A stretch of 28,153 bases of DNA from a virus. The DNA lies in IMG/VR virus record IMGVR_UViG_3300044998_000451, positions 1 to 28,153 of that record; one strand, written 5' to 3'. Shown here one piece after another: positions 20,696 to 28,153 of the stretch. The notes under the pieces were generated by a model. It was given only the letters and a program-made list of their open reading frames with translations. It did no database searches and was not told the DNA's origin. The position numbers and the translations under genes are program-made. Each line of letters starts with the position of its first letter. The stretch's first letter is position 1.

Positions 20696-22951
20696 TTATT
20701 CGTTTTCCTCGTTATTGCCTGTGTCAAGTTCTATGCGTTCACCAAACTGCATATTGAGTTCGTGAATCTGTTGTGAATACTGTTCACCGAGTTTTTCCCA
20801 GTCAATCAGTTCGAGTATTGACGCTTCACGTTCCGCACCAAACCTACCGCCTGTCGTCAGAGTTGATGTTGCCACGTTGATAAGCGGATTTCCGGCAACC
20901 ATTGCATTCGCGTTGCTTAGGCGTCTGCCAACACGTGTCGCTTCACGCTGATCTAATTGCGAATCTGTTTGCAGCCAATACATTTCTGTAATACGCAAAT
21001 CAGGTGTAAGACGGTGCGTGCGGCCAACAACCTGTTCATATTCTTTATCTGAATAAGGCAAAGTCATGTTGATTTGTACACGTGGTGAATCACCACGCAC
21101 ATCGTGAAAGCTGATACCAGTTCCACCTTTTGCCATTGAGCCAACAAGCACGCGCTTTTCGCCTTTTTGAAAAGCGCGATGTTCTTCAACAGTTTTTTTA
21201 TTGGTGTTGCCATGAATTTCTGCAACGACATTTGCACCACCAAGGCGCTTTGTCAGTTCACCAGTAATAGGTGGAATATTTGGTAAATTCTTCACTGCAA
21301 GATCAAACTGTCGCGATATTTGAGCCAATTGCGCTCTTTGCTTTTCGTTGAGCGCCTGCATTTCTCCACCCGTCATCACTTTGATAATGTCGTTGTAAAC
21401 TTTGTTGAATGCTGAATACAAATGTGTATGACCGCCAACATTATACGCGCTCAGAATTACAGGCTGTTTGCCGTTTTGAATGGCTTTCTTTGCGAGTGCT
21501 GCCGCAATAGGTATTTTTGTGTATTCAAGATAGTGACGATACCAACCTGCAAACATTGCACCAACAAACATTGATGTTTTGCCACCAAGTCCTGCTTGTG
21601 CGGCAAATGATTTCACCATAGTGAATGCTTCAATGCCTTTATTTAAGACTTTGATTTGTTCTTCTGTCAATTTGTGTGTACCGAAAAAGTTATGCAAACC
21701 GCGCAAATTTGCAACGCGCTGAATCATATAACCCTGCGAAACAAGAAATTTGTTAAGCAGTTTTGATTTACGAACGATTTGCGCTTCTGCTGTTTCAGGC
21801 GATTCGTTTTTCCTTTTTCTATAATCAAATTTTTTCTGAAATTCTTTCCAACCACCGAATGCTTCAAACAGACCTGTGTTTTCCATCCAGCCCATTTCTG
21901 ACACATCAGTGAATGGTGTGGCGCTCATATACAGAGTTTTCGTGCAGCGCCCGATCATCTTCATTGTGTTCTTTGTTTGTGTGGTTTTCTCTGCTGCGGC
22001 GTTATGAATCTCATCAAATACGCCATAATCAAATTGCAGTGCATCTGCGTTTTGCAACTTACGTAAATCATCATAACCAACAACATAAACACCTTCTGAT
22101 TCAGGCGAATCACTAAGAAGGTTTTTCACGTTTTTTGTCGCGATGCCAAAACCTGCTGCTTCTTGTTTCCAACTATTAAGCAAATTCTGTTTGCCGCGTG
22201 TCGGCACAACGACAAGAAAACGCTTTTTGCCATGATCGATCTGCATCGCTTTTATTGTCGCAAGCGCCGTTGCTGTTTTCCCCAAGCCGGGCGCGTTAGC
22301 GATAAGAAACCCATCTTTGTTTTGCAATTCAGAAAGTACGCGCTCTGCATCTTCAACCTGATAATCAAACAGTGTATTATAGCGCCTGTTGTAATTGCTT
22401 TCAGGTTCATTTTCGTTAAAGTAAGAGTTTTTGTATCGCTTTGCTTCATCTGGTAATCTGACAGTTATCGGTCTGCGTTGCACTTCAACGCGATTTGTCA
22501 CCATTGATGGTTGACCTTCAACAAGGCGACGTTCGCGGCGTTGTTGTTCGAGTTGTTTTTGCATCGCCTGTTCTGCCGTTACCCTTGGCATTTCAGTGCC
22601 TTCACGCTCAAAATGCAGCGGCAATGTGTTTGCGTCATTGATGTTATTGAACAGCGAATTTATACCTTGCTGTCGTCTGTATTCATCGACTTGACGTTGA
22701 AACCTGCGTTCTGATCGTTCTTCACGATTGCGTACACGATCTTCACGTTGACCAGCTTCTGATGTTTCATCAATACGGATATAATAGCGTTGCTGTCTGC
22801 CATCTGTGCGCGTTCTCACGACAGGTATAAGCGGTGTGCCATCTGCCGCTGTACGTGGTGCACCCGATGTCACTTTTACGACAGAACCGTTTGCAAGCGT
22901 CAAACGCGTTCCGACTTTAGGTTGTTGACTTTTTGTTAATACAAATTCCAT
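20696..22951 (-). CDS. SNF2 / strawberry-notch-like superfamily 2 helicase
   Basis: The protein has 751 residues. Residues 1-190 are Arg/Gln/Glu-rich, probably coiled and partly disordered. The ATPase core has motif I APGLGKTAT (Lys225), motif II DEIHN (313-317), motif III MSATPF (342-347), motif V GGTGISF (609-615) and motif VI VVGRTHR (641-647). The GRTHR form and the GxS-F-H phrase before it recall the strawberry-notch helicase C domain, also found in phage P1 DarB and in mobile-element helicase-methylases. No methyltransferase motif (DPPY/NPPY) is seen. It would translocate on or remodel nucleoprotein with ATP. Unusually, it is embedded between capsid and tail genes, 1 base after an 82-aa gene. 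Confidence 0.85.
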   Translation of the reverse strand: MEFVLTKSQQPKVGTRLTLANGSVVKVTSGAPRTAADGTPLIPVVRTRTDGRQQRYYIRIDETSEAGQREDRVRNREERSERRFQRQVDEYRRQQGINSLFNNINDANTLPLHFEREGTEMPRVTAEQAMQKQLEQQRRERRLVEGQPSMVTNRVEVQRRPITVRLPDEAKRYKNSYFNENEPESNYNRRYNTLFDYQVEDAERVLSELQNKDGFLIANAPGLGKTATALATIKAMQIDHGKKRFLVVVPTRGKQNLLNSWKQEAAGFGIATKNVKNLLSDSPESEGVYVVGYDDLRKLQNADALQFDYGVFDEIHNAAAEKTTQTKNTMKMIGRCTKTLYMSATPFTDVSEMGWMENTGLFEAFGGWKEFQKKFDYRKRKNESPETAEAQIVRKSKLLNKFLVSQGYMIQRVANLRGLHNFFGTHKLTEEQIKVLNKGIEAFTMVKSFAAQAGLGGKTSMFVGAMFAGWYRHYLEYTKIPIAAALAKKAIQNGKQPVILSAYNVGGHTHLYSAFNKVYNDIIKVMTGGEMQALNEKQRAQLAQISRQFDLAVKNLPNIPPITGELTKRLGGANVVAEIHGNTNKKTVEEHRAFQKGEKRVLVGSMAKGGTGISFHDVRGDSPRVQINMTLPYSDKEYEQVVGRTHRLTPDLRITEMYWLQTDSQLDQREATRVGRRLSNANAMVAGNPLINVATSTLTTGGRFGAEREASILELIDWEKLGEQYSQQIHELNMQFGERIELDTGNNEENE

Positions 22952-25159: not shown

Positions 25160-26623
25160 TTAGACATCAAGCAGCGGGCTTGTTTGTGGCTTACCAACGC
25201 CAACGTTGATGAACTGAACCATTTTGTTTGGTGCGTACCATTTTACACCGAGGTAATGGTTGACAGTTCCGCGAAGCGACGGGTCGGTTTTTGCGTACTG
25301 CACCTTATGAATTGGTGCGAGTTGCGAAATCGCTACGCTGCGCATATCGCCCATTGCAGTGAGGTCACACAAGAACGCCTTACCAGTTCCGGGAATGTAC
25401 TGATTGCGGTCTTGATACACAGTTGTTGGTGTTGCTTCACGCTTGATACGTGCAACCAGACGATATTTGCCTGTTGATACACCTGTTTCGCGATACACTT
25501 CAAAACCGAGTGCTGCATTTCCTGTACCTGCCGGGGTGATTGTCAGATCAACACGATCTGTCGATGTTGGTGCAACCGCTGCTGTTGCCGCTGATGCAAT
25601 CGACTTACCGTACTGATTGATTGCAGCAACACGGTAACGGATACCGGGCGCTGACACACCACCAACAAACAGCGCAGTTGTGTCATTGACGAGTGCTGCG
25701 GTGATTGCGGGCGCGTTTGGCGCTTTGGCAGATGTTGCGCCTTCGATCATTTCACGGCGGTTAGCAGGGTTACGAATCATTGGCACAGTGCGGCTTTCCC
25801 AGTTCAGGAAAATGTTTGGCACAAAATCAAAGTCACCAAAATCGCTGTCAAATCCGGTCACTTTGTTACCAAGACGCAACGCATTAACGCTATTACCCTG
25901 AATCACACGCTGTGTAGCGGGAATACCGAGAATGTCGTTGATGCCGGTCATCATTGACGGCGACAGATACATCTTTGACGGCGTACCGAAATTCACAGCA
26001 ATCAATTCGATTGCTTGCTTGATTGCGATTTGCGTTAGCGGATTGCCACGCAGGTCGATGATGTGATCGGTCGTTGCGTTTTTACGCAATTCTGCTTCGA
26101 GGCCGTGAATTTCCTGTGGGATGATTTCTTCATCACCGAAATAAAGAGCGTTTTCCAGACCGCGCATCAGGCGATATGTTGCCGCTTGTACTTGCAGAGC
26201 GTATGGGTCAGTGATTGTCTTTGTGTAAGACAAAACATCACCAACGCGCCACAATGCGCGAAGGAATTTCACCTTCATCGTGCCACGGAACATTTCAGCA
26301 TCATCTTCATCGGGATTTTCCAACTGATCGACAAAGACTTCTTCTTGTCCGTAACCGTCTTGCAGGGTGTATTCTTCAACCGTGCTGAACGCTTTTGTGA
26401 TACCGATGTCTTTCTGAAATTTCAGGTGTTTATCCTGCCATGTCAGAAGCGCAAGCGTACCTTCGAGCGATTGTGGGACAAGTGCCGCACCGCCTGTGTT
26501 CGTCGCGTAATCAGTATTGCCTGTATCGTCAGCAACAAGCGACTTTACGAGTTCACGCAATTCACTGTTTTTGACGTTAAGGGATTCAGCATCTTCTGCT
26601 GAAAAGTAATCAAAACCTTCCAT
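25160..26623 (-). CDS. Major capsid protein with fibronectin-III-like insertion
   Basis: The protein has 487 residues. ATG at 26623 follows AGGGAGAA. The N-terminal arm contains ELVKSLVADD and TGGAALVPQSLEG (about 43-55). The HK97-fold core follows: KHLKFQKDIG, AFSTVEEYTLQDGYG, VKFLRALWRVGDVLSYT, RLMRGLENALYFGDEEI and SKMYLSPSMMTGINDI, the pattern of SPO1/A511-type capsid proteins. Residues ~300-411 form an inserted FnIII/Ig-like beta domain (GIRYRVAAINQYGKS, then GFEVYRETGVSTGKYRLVAR), probably displayed on the shell surface. The core resumes at FLCDLTAMGDMRSVAISQLAP and ends with FINVG. A maturation cut in the first ~30 residues is plausible. Confidence 0.93.
   Translation of the reverse strand: MEGFDYFSAEDAESLNVKNSELRELVKSLVADDTGNTDYATNTGGAALVPQSLEGTLALLTWQDKHLKFQKDIGITKAFSTVEEYTLQDGYGQEEVFVDQLENPDEDDAEMFRGTMKVKFLRALWRVGDVLSYTKTITDPYALQVQAATYRLMRGLENALYFGDEEIIPQEIHGLEAELRKNATTDHIIDLRGNPLTQIAIKQAIELIAVNFGTPSKMYLSPSMMTGINDILGIPATQRVIQGNSVNALRLGNKVTGFDSDFGDFDFVPNIFLNWESRTVPMIRNPANRREMIEGATSAKAPNAPAITAALVNDTTALFVGGVSAPGIRYRVAAINQYGKSIASAATAAVAPTSTDRVDLTITPAGTGNAALGFEVYRETGVSTGKYRLVARIKREATPTTVYQDRNQYIPGTGKAFLCDLTAMGDMRSVAISQLAPIHKVQYAKTDPSLRGTVNHYLGVKWYAPNKMVQFINVGVGKPQTSPLLDV
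26459..26521 (-). repeat. Capsid copy of a protein-level motif shared with the protease tail
   Basis: This segment encodes capsid residues 35-55, from GNTDYA to QSLEG. Fifteen of 21 residues are identical to the protease-tail segment encoded at 27721-27783, with an upstream Lys-Ser also aligning after one gap. The DNA of the two copies is clearly diverged. Confidence 0.75.
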
Positions 26624-26649
26624 GTGTTTTTCTCCCTACCTTTTTTTTG

Positions 26650-27198
26650 TTACGCTTTGAGGGCGTTTTCGATGAAATCGACTTCTGATTTTGTCAGCGA
26701 GGCAATGCCGCCACTTTCAAAACGTGTAATCGCTGTGGCTTTCACCTGATTTGTTTCAACGCCTTTCATCAGAACGCTGACAATCTTTGGTTTGCCTGCT
26801 GATTTCATCAGCATTGCAGATTCGCTACCGCCAAAACGATTATCAAGCAGTTTCGAGAAACGCTCCATGGCTTCGCTTTTCATCAAAGCCCCACGACGCT
26901 CTGCGGGCGATTTTTCCAGCGCATCAACACGATCTGCAATCGATGTCAGTGCTTTTTCGATTGTGCCGAATACTTCTGACACTTCGCTATTGAGCGACTT
27001 CATCAGAGCTTCTGGCTGCGCGCCTGTATTCACTTTATTGCTGAGGTCTTTTACGACATCAACGATTGATTTCAGGACAGCTTCTGTTGCTTTCAATGAA
27101 CCAGTGACTGATTCAAGAAAGTCATTGCTTTCATATCCTTCAAGCACCTTTTCGGTTTCATCGATGGATTTTGCAAGCAGTTCAATTTCTTTTTCCAT
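26650..27198 (-). CDS. Scaffold-like coiled-coil head assembly protein
   Basis: The protein has 182 residues, with ATG at 27198 behind TATGGGAGAA. It is almost wholly helical, with heptad-like content (IDETEKVLEGY, IVDVVKDLSNKVN, TSIADRVDALEKS) and no Cys or Trp. The slot directly before the capsid gene and after the protease is the standard scaffold position. Lys-Ser occurs seven times, mostly as L-x-K-S (LAKS, LMKS at three places, LEKS, LTKS), a spacing that resembles the multiple cleavage sites of scaffolds degraded by the prohead protease. The final ~40 residues are more globular and may bind the capsid protein. Confidence 0.75.
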   Translation of the reverse strand: MEKEIELLAKSIDETEKVLEGYESNDFLESVTGSLKATEAVLKSIVDVVKDLSNKVNTGAQPEALMKSLNSEVSEVFGTIEKALTSIADRVDALEKSPAERRGALMKSEAMERFSKLLDNRFGGSESAMLMKSAGKPKIVSVLMKGVETNQVKATAITRFESGGIASLTKSEVDFIENALKA

Positions 27199-27268
27199 TT
27201 CTGTTTTCTCCCATATTTTTGTTGTTTGCTGTTAGTGATACGGATAGTCAATTATTTTTTCATGTTGT

Positions 27269-27553
27269 TCAATCCCCCTCTTCATCTTCATCGCCCTCTG
27301 TAGCTGCGCCGAATCCACCATCATCTGTTTCAGGCTCTTGTTCTTCATCTTCATCAGCAGATTCACTATACGCTTTTATCAGTTCTTTTCCGATTTCGAG
27401 CGCGATACGTTCAGACTCAGTAAGGAAAACGATTGTGCCTGTCTCTTTTTCAGGCATAAGGCTTTTTTCAAGGCGTTCTTCAAACGGCACTTGCCTCAGA
27501 TTATTAACATTTGCTTCTGCCTTTTCCAGCAATTCAATGGTGTTTATTTCCAT
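27269..27553 (-). CDS. Small acidic head-assembly protein
   Basis: The protein has 94 residues from ATG 27553, in a TAATG overlap with the protease stop and behind a GGAGG site. An upstream in-frame ATG at 27586 would add 11 residues but has no site and overlaps the protease. The first 60 residues are helical, with one L-E-K-S. The last ~30 are extremely acidic (ADEDEEQEPETDDGG ... EGDEDEEGD). It sits between protease and scaffold, so a core or scaffold accessory is the best guess. An acidic tail could also mimic DNA or bind the capsid interior. Confidence 0.65.
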   Translation of the reverse strand: MEINTIELLEKAEANVNNLRQVPFEERLEKSLMPEKETGTIVFLTESERIALEIGKELIKAYSESADEDEEQEPETDDGGFGAATEGDEDEEGD

Positions 27554-28153
27554 TAGCGGCCTCCAAACAAAATCAACTTTGCGCATTCACGGGCCAAATC
27601 AGCCGTAAAGCCTCTGTCTTGCAGATAGATTTTGATTGTTGTCATTTCAGGGTTCATTGCGCCGCTTTTCAGCAAATTCACAACACTATCAAGCGTTGCA
27701 ACCTTTTGCATTCTGTCATCGCCTTCAAGTGACTGTGACTGCAATGCTGCGCCGCCTGTTGACATTGCGTAATTCGTGCTGCCTTCATTTGCCGTGAATG
27801 ATTTTTCTGTCCACTCTACAAGGCCATCAAATGACTTTATCAGATGTATCGATTCAATGTCATCGCGACAGACTGCACCGTGGCAAATTGCGCCAAGGCT
27901 TTTTGTGATTTTTTCAAGAAACGTATCGCCGTTTACTGCTTTATACTTCGGTGTGATTGCATCATGTATCCAACGGATTTTTGTGATGCGTGCATATTTT
28001 TTTCCTGTATCTTTATCGACAATATCTTCACTTTTCTGCAAAGTCAATCCGCCGATTGATGCAGAAAATACTCCATTGCCGTGTTCCAGTGCAGGTATGA
28101 TTGCTTTTTCATTGTATGGATTGCCACGGAATAAGTTTACTTCAACAATAGCC
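27553..28153 (-). CDS. Prohead protease, C-terminal part (5' end beyond window)
   Basis: The frame is open from the window edge to TAA at 27553 (about 199 codons). The TTG at 28047 lies inside the domain and is not the start. The visible part begins in the catalytic domain: GNGVFSASIGG holds the expected nucleophile serine of caudovirus prohead proteases, followed by KKYARITKIRWIHDAITPKY, which corresponds to the family's strand 'I-x-E-I-S-L-V-x-x-P'. The catalytic His should be upstream, off the window. A C-terminal tail of about 130 residues follows, with several L-x-K-S sites and a segment copying the capsid N-terminal arm. Position before scaffold and capsid agrees. Confidence 0.8.
   Translation of the reverse strand, partial: AIVEVNLFRGNPYNEKAIIPALEHGNGVFSASIGGLTLQKSEDIVDKDTGKKYARITKIRWIHDAITPKYKAVNGDTFLEKITKSLGAICHGAVCRDDIESIHLIKSFDGLVEWTEKSFTANEGSTNYAMSTGGAALQSQSLEGDDRMQKVATLDSVVNLLKSGAMNPEMTTIKIYLQDRGFTADLARECAKLILFGGR
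27721..27783 (-). repeat. Protease-tail copy of the motif shared with the capsid arm
   Basis: This segment encodes GSTNYA ... QSLEG of the protease tail. It pairs with capsid residues 35-55 (encoded 26459-26521): TGGAAL and QSLEG are exact, and 15 of 21 residues are identical overall. The two copies lie about 1.2 kb apart in different genes. Confidence 0.75.

Follow-up and report, generated by a model that had tools for sequence, protein, structure and literature searches.

Head genes of the analysed contig

The window analysed here is a viral contig fragment of 28,153 bases that carries a myovirus head/tail gene cluster on its minus strand. The prohead protease gene (P0001; 27553..28152, minus strand) runs off the contig, leaving 199 residues and placing the N-terminus, the first ~100 residues, beyond the contig end. 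Its end is overlapped by the gene of a small acidic protein with one LEKS site (P0004; 27269..27586, minus strand), for which the choice of start codon is uncertain. Next comes a scaffold-like protein (P0003; 26650..27198, minus strand), recognized by its location between the protease and capsid genes and by its KS dipeptides, of which it contains seven against 2.2 expected, including the sites ALMK↓S (twice), LMK↓S, LEK↓S and LTK↓S (the arrow marks the bond that would be cut). The major capsid protein (P0002, 487 residues; 25160..26623, minus strand) has an SPO1-like HK97 fold and was assigned to PHROG 752 by a full-length profile match (E 9.9e-76, residues 19-476). The closest solved capsids are those of SPO1 (9vel, best by both sequence and fold; Foldseek E 2.3e-35) and phage 812 (5lii, 9row). 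A 751-residue helicase with ResIII, SNF2-like and Strawberry-notch-type domains is encoded inside the structural cluster as well (20696-22951, minus strand).

Single-protein searches gave no direct relatives of the window protease in phages or viral contigs, and none of the window capsid in viral and genome contigs. Aligned with its counterparts in the relatives L017-L021, L010 and L008, the window protease is 25-30% identical to them; the S-x-G-G around the active-site serine is invariant in this alignment, and a protease HMM scores the window protein at 30.7 bits. The serine region reads FSASIGG (28048..28068, minus strand; translation checked), with the Ser and the two Gly invariant in alignment A9. 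The active-site histidine, invariant in relatives as H62, falls beyond the contig end. Pfam S78 matches the proteases of L139, L015 and L013, and gives no match in the close group of the window protease.

A copy of the capsid arm in the protease tail

The original prediction held that capsid residues 35-55 (GNTDYATNTGGAALVPQSLEG) and protease residues 124-144 (GSTNYAMSTGGAALQSQSLEG) match at 15 of 21 positions, and both the match and its coordinates proved correct. An upstream Lys-Ser, said to align too, does so at the cost of a one-residue gap (capsid K27-S28 with protease K117-S118). With flanks included, the local alignment of capsid and protease scores 81, whereas 5000 shuffles gave a mean of 27.3, a standard deviation of 4.6 and a maximum of 57 (Gumbel p 1.9e-7). 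When all six frames of the window were searched with the capsid, only the capsid itself and the protease segment matched (E 3.8e-5). The claim that this is not a recent duplication also holds, because the two genes are only 51% identical in DNA across the aligned block and use the same codon at 7 of 21 identical residues, against 8.9 expected.

The shared feature is wider than the 21 residues first noticed and begins, family-wide, at the P1 lysine of the capsid cleavage site. In the window capsid, this predicted site is K27↓S28 (26540..26545, minus strand), equivalent to K23↓S24 of A511 and K24↓S25 of phage 812, and the copied N-terminal arm segment, as aligned to the protease tail, is KSLVADDTGNTDYATNTGGAALVPQSLEG (26459..26545, minus strand). 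Its counterpart in the protease tail is KSFTANEGSTNYAMSTGGAALQSQSLEG (27721..27804, minus strand), opening with a predicted self-cleavage site, K117↓S118 (27799..27804, minus strand), which aligns with the capsid P1 Lys. The C-terminal region after the copy (27556..27720, minus strand) corresponds to a predicted helical hairpin in relative L139.

Occurrence across related phages

The protease and capsid families of SPO1/A511-like phages were searched for the shared motif, as had been proposed with the original prediction; the shared segment was found, and the observation is general. The copy was seen in SPO1, phage K/812-like, A511, Enterococcus, Brochothrix, Lysinibacillus, Lactobacillus, Thermus, Morganella and Pseudomonas phages, and most proteases of 14 annotated relatives carry their own version of the capsid arm. 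Examples are the pairs of SPO1 (LEAGYEVDPEKMEGGDVFRKESLD vs LEAGHTVNPLDLEGGGAFRVESLE), an Enterococcus phage (TTGYGITPETQTDAGALRRE vs TTGYGITPDTQTDAAALRRE) and a Thermus phage (TAGDPHALDPKSGLTGVPAIRRES vs TAGDPHALDFKAGLTGVPAIRLES). The A511 pair scores 119, against 28.4±4.5 for shuffles, and the sole PDB sequence match of the SPO1 protease is the SPO1 capsid, reached via the copied segment (E 2.4e-6).

Capsid relatives were then fetched from IMG/VR using capsid subset alignments, and capsid and protease were paired in 142 distinct loci. Among the non-fused protease-capsid pairs, 93 of 115 exceeded z 5. A score of 50 was reached by 79% of own protease tails, by 0 of 846 other capsid windows and by 0 of 1658 other ORFs. 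By these alignment scores, the match is confined to the mature capsid arm and is absent from the rest of the capsid and from neighbouring proteins.

Little or no copy was found in some pairs, namely those of the Bacteroides phages DAC16 and SJC03, Leptospira and L185, and another route must therefore exist there. Inspection by eye often still reveals a shortened core, G-x-x-[LV]-x-x-[EQ]-S-L-E, in pairs scored negative. The two Bacteroides phage loci (L003, L004) encode a capsid of the PHROG 752 family, with no arm copy detectable in the protease or any other ORF of the locus; next to their head genes stands the gene of a NUDIX-like protein, and a tRNA-Lys directly upstream.

Boundaries of the copy and the cleavage site

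Residue identity between the two proteins jumps at the capsid P1 Lys, which is shared in 80 of 90 relatives, while position -1 is shared in only 7 of 90; the identity fades near +29. The lysine itself (K27 in the window) is invariant in 15 annotated capsids and kept in 191 of 196 loci. In the A511 record, the annotated mature peptide starts at S24, after ALK, and the phage 812 chain in PDB entry 9row starts at S25, after K24. Because both start right after it, the conserved lysine can be taken as the P1 residue of maturation. In the SPO1 capsid chain 9vel_B, 445 residues are modelled, which equals 468 minus 23, the count expected after a cut at K23, and the residues missing from it are probably the first 23. 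SLE↓G was also considered as a cleavage site of the phiKZ-like SxE type and was ruled out, since A511 and phage 812 cut at K↓S.

As delimited by these alignments, the copy is the first ~30 residues of the mature arm and stands behind a likely self-cleavage site; the removed capsid propeptide is not shared. Most of the 90 relatives have K[SAGT] at the corresponding position of the protease. We predict that the protease is cut at the K↓S/A bond before the copy, which would turn the rest of the tail into a C-terminal propeptide.

Matching of the tail to its own capsid

In 90 selected pairs, the similarity of a protease tail to its own capsid arm was ~0.41, against 0.20-0.25 between the tails of phages whose capsid bodies are <50% identical. 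At that divergence, own tail-arm similarity exceeded tail-tail similarity in 98.7-100% of comparisons. These pairs had been picked for having the copy, and the test was repeated on 19 lineages chosen by capsid body identity <45% alone. The own-pair scores of these lineages summed to 1469, compared with 773±68 for permuted pairings and 1146 for the best of 100,000 permutations (z 10.3). Control segments from the same 19 lineages showed no own-capsid matching (capsid propeptide, z 0.30; capsid +34..+70, z 0.28). By this permutation test, the protease tail changes in step with its own capsid arm across deeply diverged lineages, a clear-cut case of coordinated evolution between two proteins of the same virus.

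At the DNA level, identity averages 58%, and over all pairs the same codon is used at 861 of 1960 identical residues, with 795 expected. With codon agreement this close to chance, it is mainly the protein sequence that is kept alike, and gene conversion accounts for at most a small part of the match. One position is consistently different: the residue before [EQ]-S-L is V/I/M/L in 80 of 88 capsids and in 21 of 88 proteases, where Lys is the commonest.

Predicted structures

The AlphaFold2 model of the relative L139 protease shows a confident catalytic domain, an unfolded copy (residues 158-198 at very low confidence) and a C-terminal helical hairpin (residues 207-250, block pLDDT ~64-90). Its best PDB matches are herpesvirus proteases (E 4.9e-5), an assemblin fold seen for L139 only. 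The copied segment has no fold in single-chain models of either protein, with a block pLDDT of ~43-46 in the protease tail and of 35-39 in the window capsid (residues ~31-60). The capsid arm is probably ordered only by its neighbours, because it lacks a fold in these models and yet 9vel_B has 445 modelled residues. Both segments fit a peptide that would become ordered on a partner, though single-chain models do not themselves show docking.

Cleavage motifs in scaffolds and fused proteases

The motif LxK[SA] was counted 485 times in scaffolds (47 expected), 366 times in proteases (46 expected), 213 times in other ORFs (121 expected) and 29 times in capsid bodies (30 expected). The scaffolds of 116 loci thus hold ~10 times as many LxK↓[SA] sites as chance would give; P3 is Leu or another hydrophobic residue, P2' is Leu or Phe, and the sites are never followed by the copy. 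The copy is therefore probably not needed for cutting, given that scaffolds are full of predicted sites without it. This bears on the second reading offered in the original prediction, in which capsid and protease present the same peptide to the protease for cutting: it would hold only for the K↓S/A bond with which the copy opens, and the following ~28 residues are probably no general cutting signal. The LxK↓[SA] rule could in turn be used to predict, and annotate, the mature ends of head proteins in the SPO1-like group.

In ~26 loci (L011, L026-L029, L042-L048, L060 and others), the protease and a long scaffold-like tail form one ORF. The copy was found at z>5 in 6 of 26 of these fusions, a lower share than in the non-fused pairs and the direction that targeting would predict. 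As proof of targeting, the loss was rejected: Fisher's test gives p 4e-8, but the fusions represent 4-5 independent events, and the trend is not significant with phylogeny counted. Some fusion loci keep a weakened arm copy between the catalytic part and the scaffold; L156 has its copy close to the C-terminus.

Proposed role of the copied segment

We hypothesize, with a probability of about 0.6, that the copy belongs to a C-terminal propeptide that imitates the capsid, docks the protease on the inside of the prohead and is then removed by the protease itself. The protease would consist of a herpesvirus-assemblin-like catalytic domain, a copy of the mature arm after a K↓S/A site and a small C-terminal helical region, the last two together forming the propeptide. 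During assembly, the copy would occupy a site also used by the capsid N-arm, either in the shell or on the scaffold beneath it, and a limited number of protease molecules would thereby co-assemble on the prohead inner face, near their substrates. Once active, the protease would cut the capsid at LxK↓[SA], shred the scaffold at the same kind of site and sever its own tail, after which the capsid arms would hold the groove permanently.

The docking tail suggested by the original prediction is accordingly the best-supported reading of a segment that is conserved, arm-specific, tracks its own capsid and lies in a presumed self-removed propeptide; self-cleavage, docking and the identity of the partner are what we infer from the sequences. 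What counts against docking is that Prohead I of HK97 and D3 has a disordered N-arm (PMC10275583, PMC12749128), so that the arm groove may be unavailable when the protease would dock. Prohead protease has been detected in virions of the Twort-like phage fRuSau02 (PMC5618024) and of the Listeria phage CKA15 (PMC12282133), so some of it stays inside.

The arm and the tail might instead both be ligands of the scaffold, which would bring both into the prohead. This would explain the tail-arm matching and the less frequent retention of the copy in protease-scaffold fusions, and HK97 has scaffold density where the N-arm later sits (PMC10275583). The fusion trend, however, loses significance with phylogeny counted, and in HK97 removal of the scaffold frees the arm to bind the shell, which suggests that the shell is the arm's lasting partner; we regard this explanation as possible but rather doubtful. 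Somewhat less probable still is an autoinhibitory pseudo-substrate: the copy would sit in a docking groove on its own protease molecule or on that of a partner, and this groove would later receive the capsid arm as substrate. Since one groove would serve both ligands, copy and arm would have to match each other, and this shared constraint would account for the own-capsid matching; the copy also starts at the K↓S/A bond of the protease, which would be the first bond cut. Against this role, the tenfold enrichment of scaffold sites without the copy indicates no general need for an extended P' docking sequence, and the L139 model, as a weak test, leaves the copy unpacked on the catalytic domain, at very low confidence. 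Such a role is possible, and less likely than that of an address peptide, as scaffolds are rich in likely sites without the copy.

It is very improbable that the segment has no present function and survives from an ancient duplication or fusion of genes, its two versions held alike by gene conversion between genes that lie close together. The protease and capsid genes are indeed separated by ~1 kb, and the same codon is chosen slightly more often than expected, both overall and in a few loci (e.g., L081, L179). The low average DNA identity and near-chance codon agreement argue otherwise, a segment without use would decay, and conversion would erase the residue difference kept before [EQ]-S-L. 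Returning to a docking propeptide that mimics the arm, we lean slightly towards a general statement: this capsid family, comprising Herelleviridae and relatives that include phages of Gram-negative and Thermus hosts, may recruit its maturation protease by arm mimicry, with a mimic that co-evolves with the capsid and removes itself.

Comparison with known assembly systems

The nearest precedent is gp245 of SPN3US, a phage prohead protease whose C-terminal propeptide is removed by self-cleavage and, from truncation mutants, was proposed to target the protease into the prohead (PMC7411985, PMC10052503). Judged by these descriptions, gp245 differs in cutting after a T4-like motif rather than Lys, and no capsid-arm copy is reported for it. 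What would be new beyond this precedent is what the C-terminal peptide is. In T4, proteins are guided into the core of the prohead by short peptides that can be removed (PMC7411985), and the protease gp21, with a distinct P1 residue, shreds the core; these targeting sequences, however, are N-terminal and bind the core. We found no copy of the gp23 (p 0.076) or gp24 (p 0.73) arm in gp21. The HK97 capsid gp5 is cut at K103↓S104 (PMC10275583), the same K↓S bond, by a protease of the same class, gp4, but the HK97 scaffold is a domain of the capsid protein. The gp4 tail has no capsid-arm copy, the only alignment being a weak one at the N-terminus (p 0.026). With T4 and HK97 lacking the copy, it is a feature of the PHROG 752 capsid family and not of prohead proteases in general.

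In the herpesvirus protease-scaffold precursor, the protease has a tail shared with another assembly protein, and both are brought in by one interaction. The protease fold is related, as seen in the L139 model, and the likeness extends to the sharing of a tail with an assembly protein; the herpesvirus tail is that of the scaffold, whereas SPO1-like proteases carry the capsid's own arm. Our search of the openly available full-text literature gave no earlier description of a capsid-arm copy. For most phages, little is understood of how a restricted number of prohead proteases comes to enter the shell, or of how their entry is timed; sequence may supply the answer here, in the form of a short portable address peptide for SPO1-, A511- and phage K-like phages. 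By eye, HK97 gp4 (L199) and the L015 protease also carry similar C-terminal motifs, GLTKSQAVGLI and GLSRQQALDVI, perhaps reflecting a helical hairpin shared by prohead proteases.
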